Positions 3,241-60,180 of a stretch of DNA of 64,000 nucleotides are shown here, piece by piece. The translations under genes were made by a program, and so were the position numbers. The notes under the pieces are model-generated. The model had not been told where the DNA came from, searched no databases, and saw nothing but the letters and a program-made list of their open reading frames with translations. Each line of letters begins with the position of its first letter. Position 1 is the first letter of the stretch. This DNA is from Labia minor (Eukaryota; Arthropoda; Insecta; Dermaptera; Spongiphoridae). Location of the stretch: the NCBI GenBank assembly GCA_963082975.1, contig OY720349.1, positions 63,176,501 through 63,240,500 of the forward strand, read 5' to 3'.

Positions 3241-3634
3241 TATGTAATAGCATTCCTGTGCCACCTAGAAGTATAAGGATAAAGTCACTGGTGACGATAA
3301 ACGAACTTTTAATTGTTCTCACTATAAATAATCAAATTAATGTTTCATATTTATAGAGTTATTATAAATAAACTCAACTGTTGTTTTATAATGTTGTTAA
3401 ATAAATCACAGGGTGTTGCTTTCTAAAGTAAAAGATTTTATTATTTTATTAAAATTATATATAAAATTAATACATTATTTTATTATAATAGTTACCTAAG
3501 TAAATATATATAATAACAACATTAAACATGACACATTAGTTTGATTATTTATAGTGAGAACAATTAAAAGTTTGTTTATCGTCACCAGTGACTTGATCCT
3601 TATACTTCTAGGTGGCACAGAAATACTATTACAT
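3241..3634. repeat. MITE with about 103-bp terminal inverted repeats
   Basis: The segment 3241-3343 is the near-perfect reverse complement of 3532-3634. Both arms begin with TATGTAATAG, followed by a shared 'tgtgccacctagaagtataa' word. About 190 bp of A+T-rich sequence separates the arms and no coding potential was seen. Length near 400 bp and long inverted arms fit a foldback or MITE-type DNA element. The family could not be named. Confidence 0.7.
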
Positions 3635-5332: not shown

Positions 5333-5930
5333 CTCGACTATCTCGCAAATTTGAATTGGATTAAATAACATATATTATATTTAAATCAAATTTAATTAAT
5401 TAAATTATAAATTAAAATTAATAAATAATATTTATTAAACCAGCGCGTGTTCGGATCATTGTTGATGGCATCACGTCACGTGCTGGCGCGTGATTACCAC
5501 TCAACGTGTTAAAAAAATTAAATCCGGTACTTTCAACTATTCAATCAAACTGACATTCTATATATAGCAGTTTTATACAATTTTTAATCATGTGAAAAAC
5601 TATCAAACATATATTTTTATTTTTACGGTCAGTTTAGAGGAAAAAAAAATGAAAAGGCGGTAGGTAATGACCCTCTTCCGGATGAGCTATATTTCTCAAA
5701 AGTTGATAGAAAACTACGAATTTTTAATAATGCCCGTGTACCAAATTTCATTATTGTAACTCAAACTGTTTTTGTGTATGTAATCTTGTCTACAAACACA
5801 CACACACAGACAGACATTTTTCTCAACCTTAGTGAAAATGACTGAGGAACCTTCAAAACGTATCAAAACATCAAAATCTCGACATCGAAAATTTTCGTGA
5901 TCGCAATATACTATCACTGGCGAGATAGTA
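5333..5930 (-). repeat. Family A Helentron-like repeat, copy 1
   Basis: This copy is reversed relative to the other family A members. Its right edge reads 'gcgagatagta', the complement of the family's left terminus TACTATCTCGC, and its left edge contains ctcgactatctcgca. It carries the family's internal landmarks: a (CA)n tract at 5798-5808, the phrase 'gcatcacgtcacgtgctggcgcgtg', and aattaattaaattataaatt. The outer terminal hairpin is missing from the left edge, so the copy is truncated by a few bases. The family plan is described under 11719-12282. Confidence 0.7.
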
Positions 5931-11718: not shown

Positions 11719-12282
11719 TACTATCTCGCCAGAGATCACGAAATTTTGATGTTTTTATACGTTTTGAAGGTTCCTCAGTCAGTTTCACTAAGGTTGAGGC
11801 TAGGCAAGGCTATGTGTGTGTTTGTAGACAAGATTACACAAAAACAGTTTGAGCTACAATAATGAACGGGCATTATTCAACATTCGTAGTTTTCTATCAA
11901 CTCTTGAGAAATGTAGCTCTTTCAGAAGAGGACCATTACCTACCACGTTTTGATTTTTTTCCTCTAAAGTGACCGTAAAAATAAAGATATATGTTTGATA
12001 GTTTTTCACATGATTAAAAATTGTATAAAACTGTTATATATAGAATTTCAACTTGATTGAATAGCTGAAAGTACCGGAATAATTTTTTAACATGTTGACT
12101 GGCAATCACGCGCCAGCACGTGACGTGATGCCTTCAACAATGAGCCAAACACGCGCTGGTTTAATAAATATTATTTATTAATTTTAATTTATAATTTAAT
12201 TAATTAAATTTAATTTAAATATAATATATGTGTTAATTAATCCACTTCAACTTTGTGTGATAGTCGAGTGGAGACACTCCAG
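11719..12282 (+). repeat. Family A Helentron-like repeat, copy 2 (near full length)
   Basis: The family plan is as follows: a left terminus TACTATCTCGCC, a TG-rich microsatellite zone (here only 'tgtgtgtttg'), an A+T-rich body, an inverted sub-terminal repeat near the right end (GCGAGATAGT in better copies; here altered to gtgatagtcgag), and a short 3' hairpin TGGAGACACTCCA ending in G. Inverted sub-termini, an internal microsatellite and a hairpin beside one end are the plan known for Helentron-derived non-autonomous elements such as DINE-1. This assignment is inference. No protein is encoded. Copies in this window: 5333, 6838, 13701 (split), 32762, 57760 and 59586. Confidence 0.72.
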
Positions 12283-13032: not shown

Positions 13033-13602
13033 CTACTCTATCATCATATCTACATTGCCTGTACTATTGTCGGTTGGTGCTTCAATTGGTAATACTGATA
13101 TTAATGGCTTGTGATAACTAAAATAAGATATATATGTTCGTGATTCGACATTTTCTATATAACGTGTAAAAACAGCATCTATTGTAGTTCCAGATTTTGT
13201 TGTTGATTCCTTGGGATCGTTATTTATAAGCAGACCAAATGTTTCTTGAAGAAAGTTGATCAACGGCAACGAATCATCAGATCCAAAATTTACATTAAAA
13301 TCTCCCCCGAGAATTAGAGGGATTTTATCTTCGCCTCGTTCAAGTGCATTAGCACCTGTGTGGCTATAAACCAGTAGTGAACGGTGTATGAAATAAATAA
13401 TATCGTCTAAATTTTGGTCGTTATTTTTTTTCGGCATAGTGAAATCTGTGGAGTAGAGAAAAGCAGTTTTAAATGCAATAATAATTTTAAATCGATTTAG
13501 TAGTGTTAAAGTAATGTTGAGATTCGGATAAATAACGTGAATGGTCATCGACGCACATAACTGTATGTGTTGGCGTGTGAATCGCCGACCATGTTCACAC
13601 AC
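13033..13602 (-). pseudogene. Endonuclease-domain fragment, probably from a Helentron
   Basis: The open frame gives about 189 residues with no credible start (the first codon is GTG), so it is a 5'-truncated fragment. Its second half carries an endonuclease/exonuclease/phosphatase fold signature: ILGGDFNVNF near residue 98, then GTTIDAVFTRY, and SYFSYHKPLIS near the C-terminus where the family has its last catalytic histidine. The upstream LDDIIYFIHRSLLVYS helix fits the same domain. In Helentrons, an endonuclease of this type follows the Rep and helicase domains. The SYFSYHKP wording is familiar from such proteins in arthropods. No Rep or helicase part is present, so the piece cannot act alone. 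Family A repeat copy 3 begins about 100 bp to the right. Confidence 0.6.
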
Positions 13603-13700: not shown

Positions 13701-13816
13701 TACTATCTCGCCAGAGATAGTATTGCGATCACGAAAATTTTCGATGTTGAGATTTTGATGTTTTTATACGTTTTGAAGGTTCCTGAATCATTTTCACTAA
13801 GGTTGAGAAAAATGTC

Positions 13817-13862
<46 letters not shown>

Positions 13863-14253
13863 GGCAAGATTACGCAAAAACGGTTTGAGCTAGAATGATG
13901 AAATTTGGTACATGGACATTATTCAAAATTCATAGTTTTCTATCAACTTTTGAGAAATGTAGGTCAACCGGAAGAGGGTCATTACCTACAACGTTTTGAT
14001 TTTTTTTCCTCTAAAGTGACCGTAAAAATAAAGATATATGTTTGATAATTTTTCACATGATTAATAATTGTATAAAACTGCTATATATAGAATTTCAGCT
14101 TGATTGATTCGCTAAAATTACCAGAATTAATTTTTTAACACTGCAAATCTCACGCGCCAACACGTAACGTGGTGCCATCAACATGCGCTGATTTAATATT
14201 TATTATTTATTATTTATAATTTATAATTAATTAAATTTAATTTAAATATAATA
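13701..14253 (+). repeat. Family A repeat copy 3, left part (interrupted by the hAT pair)
   Basis: The segment begins TACTATCTCGCCAGAGATAG and includes a long (TG)n tract at about 13819-13853 and the family's body. It stops at the target duplication of the hAT element (14254-14261, TATTATAT) and resumes at 20847 after the nested transposons. The target duplication itself was originally family A sequence. Confidence 0.82.
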
Positions 14254-14261
14254 TATTATAT
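14254..14261. repeat. 8-bp target duplication of the outer hAT (left)
   Basis: TATTATAT directly precedes the outer hAT 5' end and is repeated exactly at 20839-20846. Confidence 0.9.
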
Positions 14262-14399
14262 CAGTGGTTCTTAAACTGTGGTCCGCGGACCCCTGGGGGT
14301 CCGCGAAGCCTTTACTGGGGGTCCGCGGTCCTCGGAAAAAAATCATCGTAAAAATATATACATATATAAATATTTAAAGTTCATTGTGTAACTATATCC

Positions 14400-14407
14400 T
14401 CCTAGAG
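14400..14407. repeat. 8-bp target duplication of the inner hAT (left)
   Basis: TCCTAGAG lies immediately before the inner hAT and recurs at 17735-17742. The site belongs to the outer hAT, at base 139-146 of that element. Confidence 0.93.
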
Positions 14408-17400
14408 CAGTGGTTCTTAAACTGTGGTCCGCGGACCCCTGGGGGTCCGCGAAGCCTTTACTGGGGGTCCGCGGTCCTCGGAAAAAAATCATCGTAAAAA
14501 TATATACATATATAAATATTTAAAGTTCATTGTTTAACTATATCCTCCTAGAGAATTACGGCTATAATTTAATACTATTAATAATACTATTTTATTTTAT
14601 TAAATTGATAATTATGTCAATTAATTTTTTGTGAATAAATAAACATATATAAAAAACTATATATAAAATTTGAATTTTCATCCATTCATTCATTTAAAAT
14701 CATTTTTCGATTGTTCCTTTAAAATAACCCCTCTTAGGGGCTCGGAAGGGGAGGCATATAAGGGAATTTTCTTTCACTTTGTTATTGGGGAAAACCAGGG
14801 GAGGGGACAGTCTTACCCGGAAAAACCCAAATTGTCAGCGTCCACTCTGGGGTTTTAAACAGTTTTAAAGCAAATGTTAATTATAAGTTCATTTCTCAAC
14901 GAGTTGTATCTTTAAATTATTTTTATTAATGTTAATTATAAGTTCATTTCTCAACGAGTTGTATCTTTAAATTATTTTTATTAATTTAATTAATTATAAT
15001 TAAATTATAGCTAATAATAGTTTATTATAGCTAATAATTTTTTTTAATTTTTAGTGTAATTTGCATGATCATTATTTTATAAAAACACTAAACACATTTT
15101 GCAATTTCCCAGAAAGGCTGTTTTTGAGAGTAAGTATAAGTTAGTTTTATGAATAAAAAATATTTATTTTAATAATATTTTAGAATCAAATTACGAAATT
15201 AATAATATTTTAGAATCAAATTACGAAATTAATAATATTTTAGAATCAAATTACGAAATATATTTATTATATAAATTAATATTCATTTAAAATGATATTA
15301 AATCATTTATTTAAAATGATTTAAAACATTTATTAAAATGATTTAAAACATTCATTTAAAATGATATTAAAACATTCATTTAAAATCATATTAAAACATA
15401 GCTAGTAAATAATAATTCGTTATATTTATATTATATTTATATTATATTTATATTATTGTAGTTCAATGTTAATAAATTACTCCATAAAATGGATCGTTGG
15501 CTACAAACTGGTTCAACACAGAAACGGAAAGAATCAGATGATGAGGCATCAACAGCAAACTCTACCAAGAAACGCAAAACTAGAAAATATTCGGATGATT
15601 ATTTATCATTTGGATTTACTTATATTTGCAACAATGATGTGGAAAGACCAGTCTGCGTTCTATTTCAGGAAAGTTTATCCAATGAAAGTATGAAACCTGC
15701 TAATCTCAGACGTCATTTACAAACAAAGCACAGCGAGCATGTTAGTAAGTCTATCGAATTTTTTAAAATGAAAAAAGAAGAACTTAATTCAAGTCAGAAA
15801 TTGATGGTAAAGACGGGATCTGGTGGTATGAGTAAGAAAGCAGTAATGGCATCATATGAAGTAGCTCTACTTATTGCTAAAGCAGGAAAGCCGCATAATA
15901 TAGCAGAGCAATTAATTCTTCCTGCTACAAAAGTAATTACAAATATAATGTTAGGAACTAAAGCAGCAAACGATATAAATTTGATTTCATTATCAAATGA
16001 TACGGTTAAGAATAGGATTGAAGACATGTCATGTAATATAAAAGAAGAATTAATATCGAGAGTGCGCAAAAGTCACTATTACTCATTACAATTGGATGAA
16101 AGTACTGATGTCACTAATAATGCCAATTTGTTAGCTTTCATTAGATATGAGTTTGAAAATCAAATACAAGAAGATGTATTGTTTTGTGATTCACTACCTT
16201 CACGAACGACAGCTAATGACATATTTAACAGTTTGAATAATTTTATAACCGAAAATGAAATAGAGTGGCCAAAATGTGTTGGAATTTGCACTGATGGTGC
16301 TCGTGCAATGTCAGGTACAAGAACTGGATTGATTGCTCTTATTAAAAATGTTGCGCCTCAGGTTGTTTGGAATCATTGCTGCATTCACAGAGAATCATTA
16401 GCAGCCAAAAATATGTCACCAGATTTGAAAAGAACATTAGACGAAGTAGTTAAAATTGTCAATTTCATTAAGGCTCGTCCACTTAATTCCAGAGTTTTTA
16501 AAATTTTGTGTGAGGAAATGGGTAGTCAACATACACATTTATTATTACATACAGATGTACGTTGGTTGTCCCGCGGGAAAGTACTCATTCGCCTTTTTGA
16601 GCTTCGAGATGAAATACGATTGTTTTTAATAGATGCGCATTTTGAACTGACCGAATGTTTCAATGATTTTATCTGGTTAGCTAAGGTGGCTTACTTGACT
16701 GATATTTTTACAAAATTGAACGAACTTAATTTGAGCCTGCAAGGTACTGTTGTAAATATATTTAAAGTTGAAGATAAAATAGAAGCAATGATTAAAAAAA
16801 TCGACTTGTGGTCGAAACGCATCCAGAACGGTGTATATGAGTCTTTTCCAACTCTCAATGATTTCATAGAAAGCTCCAGTGAAAAATTGCTTAATCAAAC
16901 GCGTCAATTATTTGTTGAACATTTAATTACTTTGAAAAGCAACTTCAGGAAGTATTTTTCTACTCCTGATCCTTGCAATAACTGGATCAGAGATCCATTT
17001 AATATGGAAATTACAAATGCTAAACATTTATCTGCACCTGAACAAGATATTCTCGTGGAATTATCATGTGATACAACTTATAAACTAAAATTTAACAAAA
17101 CTGAATTGAGCAACTTTTGGTTACTTCTCAGGTCAGATTATCCTGCGCTTGCAAATAAAGCACTTCAACACTTGATTCCATTCTGCACAACATATTTATG
17201 CGAACAAGCTTTTTCGGTACTATTTTATATTAAGTCTAAATATAGAAACAAATTAAATGTAGAGCCGGATCTTAGATTAAAAGTTTCCAATATTAAGCCA
17301 GATATTGAGATTCTTGTTTCAAGAAAACAACTGCATACATCTCATTAAATATGTAAGTTATATTTAATGAGATAGATGCAGTTATTTTTTAAAATATTTC

Positions 17401-17734
17401 TTATTTAATATTTTCTGAAAAAAATTATAAAATATTTATATGAATTTAATGTAAGTACCCATTATAATTTGTGAGATTTGTTGCTATGACAATGTTTGTA
17501 TTTTCTTTCTTCAATATTATAATTTCTAATAAAATGTGTTCTACAATATGCAAAAAAATCGTTATTCACCAATCACTGTTAGAAATATTCATCATATATC
17601 CTTGTCCTTATGAGATCGTAAGCCAGAAATTAATTAATAAAATGACGTAAAGTACCTAAAGTTGTGATGGGGGTCCGTCAAAAAAAATTTTTTCAAGTGG
17701 GGGTCCGTGGAGTACATAAGTTTAAGAACCTATG
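14408..17734 (+). mobile_element. Inner hAT transposon inserted in the outer copy
   Basis: This complete 3327-bp element has the same termini and orientation as its host copy and is flanked by TCCTAGAG on both sides. It is 85 bp longer than the outer copy. The excess is fully explained by a 55-bp tandem duplication (period start near 14876 and 14931) and one extra 30-bp unit in the aataatattttagaatcaaa repeat (three units at about 15172-15260 against two at 18305-18361). Base differences elsewhere are very few, for example g/t at about 14388 versus its partner, so the insertion is recent. Confidence 0.95.
15489..17348 (+). CDS. hAT transposase, ZBED5/FAM200-like, with damaged BED finger (inner copy)
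   Basis: The 619-residue frame encodes a hAT-superfamily transposase, the nuclear enzyme that cuts and re-inserts elements with matching termini. A basic stretch KKRKTRKYSDD (27-37) may be a nuclear signal. A BED-type zinc finger spans about 43-81, with C56, H76 and H81. Its second cysteine, residue 59, is Phe in this copy (TTT at 15663-15665), where the outer copy has Cys. The RNase-H-like core shows LDESTD (D203), CTDGARAM (D269), a CCIH motif (297-300) and the RW pair at 358-359. The C-terminal dimerisation part has LCEQAFS with the catalytic glutamate E572. The ATG at 15489 is chosen because MDRWLQTG resembles the start of FAM200/ZBED-type proteins. Catalytic residues are kept, but DNA binding through the finger is probably impaired. 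Confidence 0.93.
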   Translation: MDRWLQTGSTQKRKESDDEASTANSTKKRKTRKYSDDYLSFGFTYICNNDVERPVCVLFQESLSNESMKPANLRRHLQTKHSEHVSKSIEFFKMKKEELNSSQKLMVKTGSGGMSKKAVMASYEVALLIAKAGKPHNIAEQLILPATKVITNIMLGTKAANDINLISLSNDTVKNRIEDMSCNIKEELISRVRKSHYYSLQLDESTDVTNNANLLAFIRYEFENQIQEDVLFCDSLPSRTTANDIFNSLNNFITENEIEWPKCVGICTDGARAMSGTRTGLIALIKNVAPQVVWNHCCIHRESLAAKNMSPDLKRTLDEVVKIVNFIKARPLNSRVFKILCEEMGSQHTHLLLHTDVRWLSRGKVLIRLFELRDEIRLFLIDAHFELTECFNDFIWLAKVAYLTDIFTKLNELNLSLQGTVVNIFKVEDKIEAMIKKIDLWSKRIQNGVYESFPTLNDFIESSSEKLLNQTRQLFVEHLITLKSNFRKYFSTPDPCNNWIRDPFNMEITNAKHLSAPEQDILVELSCDTTYKLKFNKTELSNFWLLLRSDYPALANKALQHLIPFCTTYLCEQAFSVLFYIKSKYRNKLNVEPDLRLKVSNIKPDIEILVSRKQLHTSH

Positions 17735-17742
17735 TCCTAGAG
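17735..17742. repeat. 8-bp target duplication of the inner hAT (right)
   Basis: TCCTAGAG repeats 14400-14407 and is followed directly by the continuation of the outer hAT (aattacggct). Confidence 0.93.
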
Positions 17743-18592
17743 AATTACGGCTATAATTTAATACTATTAATAATACTATTTTATTTTATTAAATTGATAA
17801 TTATGTCAATTAATTTTTTGTGAATAAATAAACATATATAAAAAACTATATATAAAATTTGAATTTTCATCCATTCATTCATTTAAAATCATTTTTCGAT
17901 TGTTCCTTTAAAATAACCCCTCTTAGGGGCTCGGAAGGGGAGGCATATAAGGGAATTTTCTTTCACTTTGTTATTGGGGAAAACCAGGGGAGGGGACAGT
18001 CTTACCCGGAAAAACCCAAATTGTCAGCGTCCACTCTGGGGTTTTAAACAGTTTTAAAGCAAATGTTAATTATAAGTTCATTTCTCAACGAGTTGTATCT
18101 TTAAATTATTTTTATTAATTTAATTAATTATAATTAAATTATAGCTAATAATAGTTTATTATAGCTAATAATTTTTTTTAATTTTTAGTGTAATTTGCAT
18201 GATCATTATTTTATAAAAACACTAAACACATTTTGCAATTTCCCAGAAAGGCTGTTTTTGAGAGTAAGTATAAGTTAGTTTTATGAATAAAAAATATTTA
18301 TTTTAATAATATTTTAGAATCAAATTACGAAATTAATAATATTTTAGAATCAAATTACGAAATATATTTATTATATAAATTAATATTCATTTAAAATGAT
18401 ATTAAATCATTTATTTAAAATTATTTAAAACATTTATTAAAATGATTTAAAACATTCATTTAAAATGATATTAAAACATTCATTTAAAATCATATTAAAA
18501 CATAGCTAGTAAATAATAATTCGTTATATTTATATTATATTTATATTATATTTATATTATTGTAGTTCAATGTTAATAAATTACTCCATAAA

Positions 18593-20452
18593 ATGGATCG
18601 TTGGCTACAAACTGGTTCAACACAGAAACGGAAAGAATCAGATGATGAGGCATCAACAGCAAACTCTACCAAGAAACGCAAAACTAGAAAATATTCGGAT
18701 GATTATTTATCATTTGGATTTACTTATATTTGCAACAATGATGTGGAAAGACCAGTCTGCGTTCTATGTCAGGAAAGTTTATCCAATGAAAGTATGAAAC
18801 CTGCTAATCTCAGACGTCATTTACAAACAAAGCACAGCGAGCATGTTAGTAAGTCTATCGAATTTTTTAAAATGAAAAAAGAAGAACTTAATTCAAGTCA
18901 GAAATTGATGGTAAAGACGGGATCTGGTGGTATGAGTAAGAAAGCAGTAATGGCATCATATGAAGTAGCTCTACTTATTGCTAAAGCAGGAAAGCCGCAT
19001 AATATAGCAGAGCAATTAATTCTTCCTGCTACAAAAGTAATTACAAATATAATGTTAGGAACTAAAGCAGCAAACGATATAAATTTGATTTCATTATCAA
19101 ATGATACGGTTAAGAATAGGATTGAAGACATGTCATGTAATATAAAAGAAGAATTAATATCGAGAGTGCGCAAAAGTCACTATTACTCATTACAATTGGA
19201 TGAAAGTACTGATGTCACTAATAATGCCAATTTGTTAGCTTTCATTAGATATGAGTTTGAAAATCAAATACAAGAAGATGTATTGTTTTGTGATTCACTA
19301 CCTTCACGAACGACAGCTAATGACATATTTAACAGTTTGAATAATTTTATAACCGAAAATGAAATAGAGTGGCCAAAATGTGTTGGAATTTGCACTGATG
19401 GTGCTCGTGCAATGTCAGGTACAAGAACTGGATTGATTGCTCTTATTAAAAATGTTGCGCCTCAGGTTGTTTGGAATCATTGCTGCATTCACAGAGAATC
19501 ATTAGCAGCCAAAAATATGTCACCAGATTTGAAAAGAACATTAGACGAAGTAGTTAAAATTGTCAATTTCATTAAGGCTCGTCCACTTAATTCCAGAGTT
19601 TTTAAAATTTTGTGTGAGGAAATGGGTAGTCAACATACACATTTATTATTACATACAGATGTACGTTGGTTGTCCCGCGGGAAAGTACTCATTCGCCTTT
19701 TTGAGCTTCGAGATGAAATACGATTGTTTTTAATAGATGCGCATTTTGAACTGACCGAATGTTTCAATGATTTTATCTGGTTAGCTAAGGTGGCTTACTT
19801 GACTGATATTTTTACAAAATTGAACGAACTTAATTTGAGCCTGCAAGGTACTGTTGTAAATATATTTAAAGTTGAAGATAAAATAGAAGCAATGATTAAA
19901 AAAATCGACTTGTGGTCGAAACGCATCCAGAACGGTGTATATGAGTCTTTTCCAACTCTCAATGATTTCATAGAAAGCTCCAGTGAAAAATTGCTTAATC
20001 AAACGCGTCAATTATTTGTTGAACATTTAATTACTTTGAAAAGCAACTTCAGGAAGTATTTTTCTACTCCTGATCCTTGCAATAACTGGATCAGAGATCC
20101 ATTTAATATGGAAATTACAAATGCTAAACATTTATCTGCACCTGAACAAGATATTCTCGTGGAATTATCATGTGATACAACTTATAAACTAAAATTTAAC
20201 AAAACTGAATTGAGCAACTTTTGGTTACTTCTCAGGTCAGATTATCCTGCGCTTGCAAATAAAGCACTTCAACACTTGATTCCATTCTGCACAACATATT
20301 TATGCGAACAAGCTTTTTCGGTACTATTTTATATTAAGTCTAAATATAGAAACAAATTAAATGTAGAGCCGGATCTTAGATTAAAAGTTTCCAATATTAA
20401 GCCAGATATTGAGATTCTTGTTTCAAGAAAACAACTGCATACATCTCATTAA
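18593..20452 (+). CDS. hAT transposase, ZBED5/FAM200-like, intact (outer copy)
   Basis: This 619-residue frame is identical to the inner copy except for residue 59, which here is the expected Cys (TGT at 18767-18769), so the BED finger C56-x2-C59...H76-x4-H81 is complete. The catalytic residues D203, D269 and E572, the CCIH motif and the RW pair are all present. A C-terminal dimerisation segment (about 540-619) ends in KQLHTSH. The gene sits in an element now interrupted near its 5' end by the inner copy. The 5' terminus is therefore about 3.3 kb further from the gene than normal, which could alter expression and mobility of this copy. Protein length is normal for the family (about 570-700). 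No intron was seen. This is the best candidate in the window for a working transposase. Confidence 0.95.
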   Translation: MDRWLQTGSTQKRKESDDEASTANSTKKRKTRKYSDDYLSFGFTYICNNDVERPVCVLCQESLSNESMKPANLRRHLQTKHSEHVSKSIEFFKMKKEELNSSQKLMVKTGSGGMSKKAVMASYEVALLIAKAGKPHNIAEQLILPATKVITNIMLGTKAANDINLISLSNDTVKNRIEDMSCNIKEELISRVRKSHYYSLQLDESTDVTNNANLLAFIRYEFENQIQEDVLFCDSLPSRTTANDIFNSLNNFITENEIEWPKCVGICTDGARAMSGTRTGLIALIKNVAPQVVWNHCCIHRESLAAKNMSPDLKRTLDEVVKIVNFIKARPLNSRVFKILCEEMGSQHTHLLLHTDVRWLSRGKVLIRLFELRDEIRLFLIDAHFELTECFNDFIWLAKVAYLTDIFTKLNELNLSLQGTVVNIFKVEDKIEAMIKKIDLWSKRIQNGVYESFPTLNDFIESSSEKLLNQTRQLFVEHLITLKSNFRKYFSTPDPCNNWIRDPFNMEITNAKHLSAPEQDILVELSCDTTYKLKFNKTELSNFWLLLRSDYPALANKALQHLIPFCTTYLCEQAFSVLFYIKSKYRNKLNVEPDLRLKVSNIKPDIEILVSRKQLHTSH

Positions 20453-20838
20453 ATATGTAAGTTATATTTAATGAGATAGATGCAGTTATTTTTTAAAATA
20501 TTTCTTATTTAATATTTTCTGAAAAAAATTATAAAATATTTATATGAATTTAATGTAAGTACCCATTATAATTTGTGAGATTTGTTGCTATGACAATGTT
20601 TGTATTTTCTTTCTTCAATATTATAATTTCTAATAAAATGTGTTCTACAATATGCAAAAAAATCGTTATTCACCAATCACTGTTAGAAATATTCATCATA
20701 TATCCTTGTCCTTATGAGATCGTAAGCCAGAAATTAATTAATAAAATGACGTAAAGTACCTAAAGTTGTGATGGGGGTCCGTCAAAAAAAATTTTTTCAA
20801 GTGGGGGTCCGTGGAGTACATAAGTTTAAGAACCTATG

Positions 20839-20846
20839 TATTATAT
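20839..20846. repeat. 8-bp target duplication of the outer hAT (right)
   Basis: TATTATAT matches 14254-14261 exactly, immediately after the 3' terminus aacctatg. Confidence 0.9.
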
Positions 20847-28666: not shown

Positions 28667-29571
28667 TACAGGAGTTGAAAAACCTTCAGAAGGTACCAGT
28701 GGGGAGTGCTTAGTCTAAAGCAGAGATGCGCCCCTCCTGGTTATGTGGGATTTTTACCTCACTAAAAACACTCTCCTGTGGGCCACGGAGAATCCCAGAC
28801 CGGAACCCTTTCGGATGACTTCAGTCTGGGCCGAGCTTTGTGCATTTTCGCTTCTCCTTAGTCTAAGCACCCCTCATGTCTCTTGGTTCGCAGCACCTCC
28901 TCCACAAATTCAGCTACGGCTTTCCACTTGTCCTTGCTCTGTAGCATTACGGATATGATAGAATCCGGTGCTACAGGTCCGACGCTGGTTGTAAGACTCC
29001 TCTTTTTTGTGATGAACCGCGAGCATTCGAAGAAGGTGTGATGAGCGGTATCCTCGCTACCCCGGCACCAGAGACAGAAGGGTGAAGCGACTTTGTTCAT
29101 TTTAAAAAGGTATGCCCGGAAGTACCCATGCCCTGTAAGAAATTGGCACAGGTAAAAATTTATATCTCCATGGCCCCTGTCAATCCACGATTTTACGTGA
29201 GGGACTAATTTCCTTGTCCATTGCCCAAGGTTATCTTCCCAACGACTCTGCCAACGCTGTAGTGTTTCTTTCCTTGCCTCTTGCTTGTTATTTCTGGTCA
29301 GGAAAATTGTTCTTCTTTCTTCAGCTAGAAGATCTATGGGAATAACTCCTGCTATTAAGAGAACCGCCTCCCCATCAACCGTTCTATAGGCGCTGGTAAT
29401 TCTCAAGGCACATTTTCGTTGGACCGATAGTAACCTTTTCCTATATTTCTTAATCCTCATGGCAACAGCCCAAATCTCCGATCCATATAACATCATCGAC
29501 TGGGCAGCCACCATAAGCAGTCTTCTCTTGCTCTGACTAGGACCACCGGTATTTGCCATCAGCCTCGACAA
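28635..29571 (-). mobile_element. 5'-truncated R1-like non-LTR retrotransposon
   Basis: Read on the - strand the insertion ends in a poly(A) tail of about 30 nt (T run at 28635-28665) after a 3' untranslated region. It is bounded by the 13-bp duplication AATTATATAGTAG. The 5' end is cut off within the reverse transcriptase gene, as happens in target-primed insertion. The long pure A tail, exact duplication and open frame suggest a young insertion. Confidence 0.9.
28858..29571 (-). pseudogene. C-terminal part of R1-type reverse transcriptase protein (5' truncated)
   Basis: About 237 residues remain in one open frame. The start LMANTGGPSQSKRRLLMVAA followed by SMMLYGSEIWAVA is the 'thumb' region after the reverse transcriptase palm in R1/Jockey-group LINEs. 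Further on, LTGHGYFRAYLF precedes FCLWCRGSEDTAHHTFFEC, a CCHC zinc-knuckle (C-x2-C-x7-H-x4-C) typical of the C-terminus in the R1 group. The catalytic palm with YADD lies upstream and is missing, so the fragment cannot reverse-transcribe. The frame is undamaged down to its stop at 28858. Confidence 0.85.
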
Positions 29572-32761: not shown

Positions 32762-33175
32762 TACTATCTCGGTTTAAGCTAGAATAATGAAATTTTGTAT
32801 ATGGGCATTATTAAAAATTCGTAGTTTTCTATCAACTTTTGAGAAATCATCCGGAAGAGGGTCATTACCTTCCAAGTTTTGATTTTTTTTCCTGGAAAGT
32901 GACCGTAAAAATAAAGATATATGTTTGATAATTTTTCTAATGATTAAAAATTGTATAAAACTGCTATATATACAATTTCAGCTTTATTGAATCGCTGAAA
33001 GTAATTTTTAAACACTGCAAATCTCGCGCCAGCACGTAACGTGGGGCCCTCAACAGAGCCAAACTCGCTCTGGTTTAATAAATATTATTTATTAATTTTA
33101 ATTTATAATTTAATTAATATATGAGTTAATTAATCCAATTCAAATTTGCGAGATAGTCGAGTGGAGAAACTCCAG
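32762..33175 (+). repeat. Family A repeat copy 4, internally deleted
   Basis: TACTATCTCG is followed directly by 'gtttaagctagaataatgaa', so the hairpin, the tgttgagattttgatg zone and the TG tract are all missing. The rest of the body, the inverted sub-terminus gcgagatagt and the 3' hairpin (here TGGAGAAACTCCA) are present. Confidence 0.72.
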
Positions 33176-59585: not shown

Positions 59586-60180
59586 TACTATCTCGCCAGA
59601 GATAGTATTGCGATCACGAAAATTTTCGATGTTGAGATTTTGATGTTTTTATTCGTTTTGAAGGTTCCTGAATCATTTTCTCTAAGGTTGAGAATAATGT
59701 CTGTGTGTGTGTATGTGTGTGCGTATGTATGTAACCAAGATTATGCAAAAACGGTTTAGAATGATGAAATTTGGTACATGGGCATTATTTAAAATTCATA
59801 GTTTTCTATCAACTTTTGAGAAATGTAACTCAACCGGAAGAGGGTCATCACTTACAACGTTTTGATTTTTTTTCCTCTAAAGTGACCGTAAAAATAAAGA
59901 TATATGTTAGACAATTTTTCATATGATTAATAATTGTATAAAACTGCTATATATAGAATTTCAGCTTGATTGATTCGCCGAAATTACCAGAATTAATTTT
60001 TTAACAGTGCAAATCTCACGCGCCAACACGTGACGCGGTGCCATCAACAAAAAGCCAAACATGCGCTGGTTTAATATTTATTATTTATAATTTATAATTA
60101 ATTAAATTTAATTTAAATATAATATATTATGTTATTTAATCCAATTCAAATTGCGAGATAGTTGAGTGGAGACACTCCAG
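59586..60180 (+). repeat. Family A repeat copy 5 (full length)
   Basis: Starts TACTATCTCGCCAGAGATAG, has a short TG tract (59702-59722), and ends gcgagatagttgag with the hairpin TGGAGACACTCCA and G at 60180. It begins only 25 bp after family B copy 6. Confidence 0.83.

Follow-up and report, generated by a model that had tools for sequence, protein, structure and literature searches.

The window, a 64,000-nucleotide stretch of the Labia minor genome (contig OY720349.1, positions 63,176,501 to 63,240,500), contains two copies of one hAT transposon, of which one is complete and lies within the left end of the other. The features of the nest are as follows.

14254-14261, no strand: left copy of the outer TSD, TATTATAT, from the reading of termini and TSDs and from empty-site paralogues
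14262-14407, + strand: left end of the outer hAT copy, 146 bp, carrying the 15-bp TIR together with every GGTCCG repeat of the left subterminal region
14400-14407, no strand: left copy of the inner TSD, TCCTAGAG, corresponding to element position 139-146
14408-17734, + strand: inner hAT copy, complete, 3327 bp
14546-14553, no strand: octamer TCCTAGAG inside the inner copy, unoccupied
14873-14982, + strand: 55-bp unit in tandem, twice here and once in the outer copy
15169-15259, + strand: 30-bp unit in tandem, three times here and twice in the outer copy
15489-17348, + strand: inner transposase, 619 aa, with F59 in place of the predicted BED-finger zinc ligand Cys59 (base 15664)
17735-17742, no strand: right copy of the inner TSD, TCCTAGAG
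17743-20838, + strand: remainder of the outer hAT copy
18593-20452, + strand: outer transposase, 619 aa, Cys59 kept; weak, sub-cut-off Pfam matches to zf-BED and Dimer_Tnp_hAT
20839-20846, no strand: right copy of the outer TSD, TATTATAT

The outer copy is comprised of 14262-14407 and 17743-20838, a total of 3242 bp, and both copies terminate in the TIRs CAGTGGTTCTTAAAC and CATAGGTTCTTAAAC. A complete inner copy lies between duplicated octamers of its host element, and the outer copy has a TSD of its own, as is characteristic of a nested self-insertion. The same-orientation nest with both TSDs intact, and the insertion site 139-146 bp into the outer copy, had been proposed from the sequence alone and proved exact to the base. 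The two copies differ by 3 substitutions in all and by a single repeat unit in each of two arrays, of 55 bp at 14873 and of 30 bp at 15169; the array differences account for their lengths of 3327 and 3242 bp. The arrays of the outer copy are contracted; expansion in the inner copy was considered and dropped, since its state of two 55-bp and three 30-bp units was the commonest (21/30 sampled copies). Empty outer sites, suggested as a check in the sequence-only reading, were found as paralogues: the joined outer flanks match further members of a ~640-bp repeat without a break (for example L036, 94% over 394 bp, and L039, 93% over 410 bp), and the empty sites in L021 and L036 read TATTATGT, one base from the outer TSD.

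The short TIRs (15 bp, 2 mismatches) and the size of the element (3.2-3.3 kb) fall within the hAT limits of 5-27 bp and <4 kb given in the available text of PMC3517528, and an 8-bp TSD was present in 19/19 composites or copies that were read on both sides. GGTCCG repeats occur at element positions 19, 25 (inverted), 37 and 59, and again at 3265 and 3295; because the left repeats sit at 19-59, none of them lies outside the 146-bp left end. Among 87 sampled TSDs the consensus was near CTCTAGAG, and 86 had the central TA of the Buster-type consensus nnnTAnnn (PMC3517528, PMC3499496). The element is taken to be a young member of the hAT superfamily, assigned to the Buster type on its target site. 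It is abundant as well as young, and moves by cut-and-paste. One scan of viral_contigs found no relatives. A word-based whole-genome DNA search with the outer remainder gave no matches, the method skipping very common words, while pattern searches worked.

Both copies carry full 619-residue frames that differ at one residue (F59 inner, C59 outer), as had been noted. The predicted finger motif is C56-x2-C59-...-H76-x4-H81 (Cx2CxnHx4H), and C59F in the inner copy would remove a zinc-ligand cysteine of this BED finger. Cys59 was present in 26/26 readable copies (30 were sampled; L030, L036, L041 and L052 were unreadable). Restriction of F59 to the inner copy of the window was considered and dropped, as L014 also has F59. 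The outer protein matched Pfam zf-BED weakly (16.7 bits, cut-off 20.6) and the inner protein gave no match to this profile; Dimer_Tnp_hAT scored 19.5 bits, below its curated cut-off of 21.4. NCBIfam profiles gave weak matches alone, far under their cut-offs, and PDB sequences gave no match to the transposase up to E 10. Open 619-aa frames were found in 16/20 composite-derived units, 2 of them with F59. The inner copy, with its finger broken, would probably be mobilised in trans by intact copies.

To examine occupation of the internal octamer, 604 Mb of genome was searched for the octamer site joined to an element end. This yielded 19 matches, of which 18 had entered the site carried by the family itself; the remaining one (L028) was a plain copy at genomic TTCTAGAG. 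The octamer at 139-146 was unoccupied at 1586 places, which support the inner TSD, and occupied at 18, including the nest of the window. Three occupied sites were same-orientation nests, two were inverted nests, three were copies of an inverted truncated composite, four held related MITEs, and six consisted of an outer left end followed by one whole copy (hereafter tandem-left-end units). Perfect 8-bp outer TSDs were present at 18/18 own-site loci, or 19/19 counting L028. Comparison of 400-bp flanks returned 6 matching rows, representing interspersed repeats, and no pair of loci was alike on both sides. Consistent with the recent origin suggested earlier, 19/20 composite-derived units differ by 0-5 substitutions from the majority (indels apart), the exception being L018 with 18. 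The octamer is occupied repeatedly and in both orientations. On structure alone, no fewer than four insertions are needed, one in the same orientation, one inverse and two of MITEs; the 18 cases are not proven to be independent of one another. Insertion inside another copy at any site was seen in 0/68 copies taken in map order. The genome-wide test covered one octamer, and other self-sites may exist.

Within the element, TCCTAGAG is the octamer that scores highest against the 87 sampled TSDs (7.72 bits, runner-up 5.87). With about 1600 copies present, the usual target preference, aided by open chromatin at the element's promoter and with no self-targeting, could account for the repeat insertions at this octamer, and stands about an even chance of being sufficient. 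TcBuster integrates at nnnTAnnn and favours transcription start sites (PMC3499496), in keeping with this explanation. A target model in which the eight positions are treated as independent and 1600 copies are assumed predicts 0.58 insertions at site 139-146 and 5.35 anywhere in the family. If one event per orientation is allowed, two full-length insertions against 0.58 is no significant excess. The family insertions seen at the site, however, number 14, or six with hybrids omitted and the three truncated composites counted once. Furthermore, 11/13 visible-left-end insertions at this octamer lie in the element's own site, a site that makes up some 19-32% of such octamers according to two approximate estimates (non-family octamers put at ~3,300 from one match in 182,485 non-element bases, or at ~6,800 from base composition). 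Self-insertions at the site exceed the target model if the haplotype-distinct composites are independent, which is not proven.

Three of the occupied loci (L025-L027) have common breakpoints over 6077 bp and three different TSDs, so at least this truncated nested composite moved as a unit. An identical 337-bp MITE (0 differences) lies at the site in L019, L021 and L022 with three different outer TSDs. These element and MITE composites probably also moved as units, although the proof is weaker because identical MITEs may land separately at a hot octamer. The six tandem-left-end units (L011, L012, L014, L016, L017 and L018) each have their own 8-bp TSD and are only 146 bp longer than the plain element. 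Because their haplotypes are all different, no tandem-left-end unit is shown to have multiplied. It had been suggested that the nest could move as hybrid units, and the predicted structure of outer left end with inner right end does exist at six loci; hybrid transposition is a likely source, not a proven one, since recombination of a nest in place yields the same structure. In such a collapse, recombination or single-strand annealing between the ~3.1-kb direct repeats would remove one body and keep the outer TSD. The different haplotypes of all six units are in line with collapse, as is L013, in which A1392G is common to the inner and outer copies and shows exchange or close kinship within the nest. 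Collapse would nevertheless need very frequent recombination, given a 6:3 ratio of tandem-left-end units to same-orientation nests in a family of low divergence, and a hybrid end pair just 146 bp longer than normal should be an easy substrate for transposase. Collapse is accordingly considered quite possible, but somewhat the less probable origin.

Incorrect side-by-side placement of near-identical copies during assembly is conceivable for copies just 3 substitutions apart, yet two array differences distinguish the copies and both TSDs are exact. An artefact was rejected as highly improbable because 18 similar loci, in five structural classes, have different flanks; contigs of up to 126 Mb also suggest a long-read assembly. 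Tandem duplication or unequal crossing-over without transposition would explain adjacent copies in the same orientation but was rejected as more improbable still, as the junctions fall exactly at element termini, the interrupted 8-bp site is repeated without change on either side, and the same octamer also takes inverted insertions and MITEs.

Taken together, we consider it probable that a preferred octamer in the element's own left end leads to recurrent nests, and that these give rise to composites and tandem-left-end units via mixed pairing of ends. The octamer at 139-146 is the best fit to the target preference of the element's own transposase, and the repeated landing of new copies there, in either orientation, would follow from this fit. 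As the insertion point lies further in than the TIR and every left subterminal repeat, the outer left end stays complete, and the inner copy keeps its own octamer intact. Transposase may then pair ends irrespective of which copy owns them, and an outer left end paired with an inner right end would move as a tandem-left-end element, a route consistent with the structures and TSDs at the six loci. In a more speculative and rather unlikely extension, the octamer is a built-in landing site: transposase bound at the left end would attract further copies, and the resulting tandem-left-end elements may be better binders that outcompete plain copies. If true, this would represent a self-renewing route to new end architectures for a cut-and-paste transposon.

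Nested hAT elements are already known from maize double Ds, while recurrent self-insertion at one octamer together with tandem-left-end forms looks like a new form of such nesting. A search of open-access papers by title and start of abstract, which is weak evidence of absence, found none among the matches listed on a hAT element that inserts repeatedly into itself at a single internal octamer and gives tandem-left-end units. One genome with little divergence here provides unoccupied sites, nests in both orientations, element and MITE composites, a truncated composite in three copies, and tandem-left-end units. The family makes the route from nest to hybrid testable and is a natural set for measuring the preference of a transposase for its own end as a target.

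Double Ds of maize (hAT, Ac/Ds) likewise has a hAT element inside its own copy, resulting in extra ends that transposase can mispair. The classical double Ds is inverted, whereas here the insertions at one octamer take at least four structural forms, and same-orientation nests are present. In maize B73, the available text of PMC3260210 describes nesting among Ds types as rarer; a single Ds-l4 within a Ds-l3 is recorded there, and double Ds was not found. Buster-type hAT elements (TcBuster, Mar) share the 8-bp TSD nnnTAnnn (PMC3517528, PMC3499496), the likeness here being by target site, and a BED domain is common to the Ac and Buster families (PMC3606216); the available portions of PMC3517528, PMC3499496 and PMC3606216 do not mention self-insertion for TcBuster or Mar. 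P-element self-insertions also enter copies of the same family (PMC4744444), as do LTR-retrotransposon autoinsertions, at non-random positions (PMC6911290); these elements differ in transposition chemistry, and the available text of both sources describes no single, repeatedly occupied octamer. Plant MULEs with tandem TIRs have doubled ends as well, some in several copies, but belong to another superfamily, and the more successful ones have both ends doubled (PMC3310237). The origin of their tandem TIRs is called unclear by the authors, nested insertion being one option named in the available text (PMC3310237), and the present family is relevant for this reason. In contrast to the MULEs, the nest and the doubled-left-end form coexist here, and the octamer at which one left end meets the next is identical to the TSD of the nest. 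Double elements found as insertions in their own right hint at how a transposon builds larger versions of itself.

The window contained two near-identical hAT-type copies, one within the other, with terminal inverted repeats CAGTGGTTCTTAAAC and CATAGGTTCTTAAAC. Their positions and those of a ~640-bp interspersed repeat are listed here.

Features of the window
14262-14407 and 17743-20838: outer hAT copy, target-site duplication (TSD) TATTATAT
14408-17734: inner hAT copy, TSD TCCTAGAG (positions 139-146 of the element)
13702-14259, 5333-5929, 11813-12282, 32770-33175 and 59587-60180: copies of the ~640-bp repeat

The same-orientation nest with both TSDs proposed by the sequence-only reading was confirmed, with TATTATAT around the outer copy and TCCTAGAG around the inner. 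The copies differed by three substitutions, one 55-bp tandem unit and one 30-bp tandem unit, and both carried a 619-aa frame; the single-residue difference claimed between these frames lies at residue 59. Each transposase frame has a hairpin (29-bp arms, 90% complementary) across its 3' end, stop codon included (17324-17388 and 20428-20492). Minus-strand frames at 28858-29571 and 13033-13602 may encode fragments of proteins from non-LTR retrotransposons (a reverse-transcriptase tail and an endonuclease).

The host of the outer copy is one of the ~640-bp repeats. Its joined outer flanks aligned without interruption to other repeat copies (94% over 394 bp at locus L036; 93% over 410 bp at L039), providing the empty outer sites proposed as a check on the nest. 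The sequence at the corresponding site in L021 and L036 is TATTATGT. At L036 a repeat of this type (638 bp) is itself located within a different hAT copy, which makes the nest three levels deep and supplies the outer insertion with an independent empty site.

The 604-Mb genome (71 contigs) was searched at up to three mismatches. The internal site was unoccupied at 1586 places (788 + 798) and joined to an element end in 19 matches, 18 of which, window included, were insertions into the family's own site; the 19th (L028) was a plain copy at genomic TTCTAGAG.

Composites at the internal site, by class
A: six with left end 1-146 plus one whole copy, without the outer remainder (L011, L012, L014, L016, L017, L018)
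B: three same-orientation nests (window, L013, L015)
C: four with a MITE at the site (337 bp in L019, L021, L022; 465 bp in L020)
D: two inverted full nests (L023, L024)
E: inverted truncated 6077-bp composite, three copies (L025-L027)

Perfect 8-bp outer TSDs were present at all 19 loci examined on both sides, and TCCTAGAG stood on both sides of the inner insertion wherever the right side remains (L013, L015, L019-L024, window). Comparison of 400-bp flanks between loci yielded six matches, within repeats, and no locus pair with both flanks in common. Close to all (19/20) composite-derived units were 0-5 substitutions from the majority over ~3.3 kb (L018 had 18), with further variation by indels, many within tandem arrays; 16/20 retained a complete 619-aa frame. 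Given so few substitutions, the burst is recent, in agreement with the recency claimed from the window. A1392G, common to the inner and outer copies of nest L013 and found in no other of 21 aligned copies among the differences listed, suggests exchange or sibling insertion.

Pooling of 87 TSDs (30 from L029-L058, 38 from L059-L096, and 19 from composite or junction loci) yielded a palindromic target preference near CTCTAGAG, with a central TA in all except L080 (86/87). Scored on these, TCCTAGAG, identical to none of the 87, was the top octamer of the element (7.72 bits; next 5.87). The target model predicted 10.8% of self-insertions at this site and, for 1600 copies, 5.35 self-insertions overall and 0.58 at the site; 14 family insertions (classes A, B, D and E) and four MITE-bearing ones were observed. 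Classes B, D and E, with E as one event, represent six insertions (model probability 3e-5), while the two full-length events forced by structure (one same-orientation, one inverse) have a probability of about 0.12 at the same mean, no significant excess. Insertions at TCCTAGAG with a visible left end were in the element's own site in 9/10 and 2/3 cases (two sets), the remaining two (L097, L098) being outside the family; the family's own sites account for ~19-32% of these octamers according to two rough estimates. Target preference thus explains the choice of site, and probably not all of the insertion frequency. Self-insertion at other element positions was not common: the 68 copies sampled in map order along contig C1 (L029-L096) included none lying within another copy.

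All three class E copies share internal breakpoints and have three different outer TSDs; the truncated composite was therefore mobilised as one unit. The ~27-bp spacer at the centre of its large palindrome is oriented in L025 opposite to L026 and L027. Both MITEs (element position 146) have family-like ends, CAGAGG...CCTCTG, and use the same octamer. The 337-bp sequence is identical at its three loci, which have three outer TSDs, and the element likely moved together with it as a unit; identical MITEs may instead have landed separately at the hot octamer, and the 30-bp array state is 3 in L021 and 4 in L019 and L022.

Class A has the structure expected from pairing an outer left end with an inner right end, and the octamer between its two left ends remains TCCTAGAG. 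The left-end GGTCCG repeats (19, 25 (inverted), 37 and 59) all fall within the first 65 bp, so by that measure nothing of the left end is missing from the 146-bp fragment. The same structure would result if nests collapsed by recombination between the two bodies with loss of one, the TSD then being the former outer TSD. The six bodies have different haplotypes, as collapse would allow, and multiplication of a single hybrid is thus not demonstrated. We regard collapse as a tenable but rather doubtful origin and hybrid transposition as a fairly probable one. The suggestion that hybrid units could in principle move matches the structure at six loci, with movement itself somewhat favoured.

At residue 59 the inner copy has Phe and the outer has Cys; Phe59 occurred in 2/20 composite-derived units (the window's inner copy and L014), and Cys in 26/26 readable copies of 30 sampled. 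The outer-type motif, C56-x2-C59 with H76-x4-H81, agrees with the BED signature Cx2CxnHx3-5[H/C] quoted in PMC3606216, and only the outer protein gave a Pfam zf-BED match, weak and under cut-off. In Hermes, the BED domain is reported to be essential to excision in vitro and to locate the left end (PMC10368747). The inner protein therefore probably lacks activity, and its copy was probably mobilised in trans. Full 619-residue frames in both copies, as originally noted, therefore need not mean two active copies.

The Labia minor family obeys the same TSD rule as Buster-type hAT elements (PMC3517528, PMC3499496) and, by target site alone, would be of Buster type. Nested hAT elements are known in maize (PMC3260210). 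MULEs also include elements with doubled ends, whose origin is described as unclear, nested insertion being one option (PMC3310237); class A units likewise have doubled ends, at the left. Within the literature searched, two aspects are apparently novel: a single octamer within the element's own left end has been used repeatedly, and nest and doubled-left-end forms occur together.
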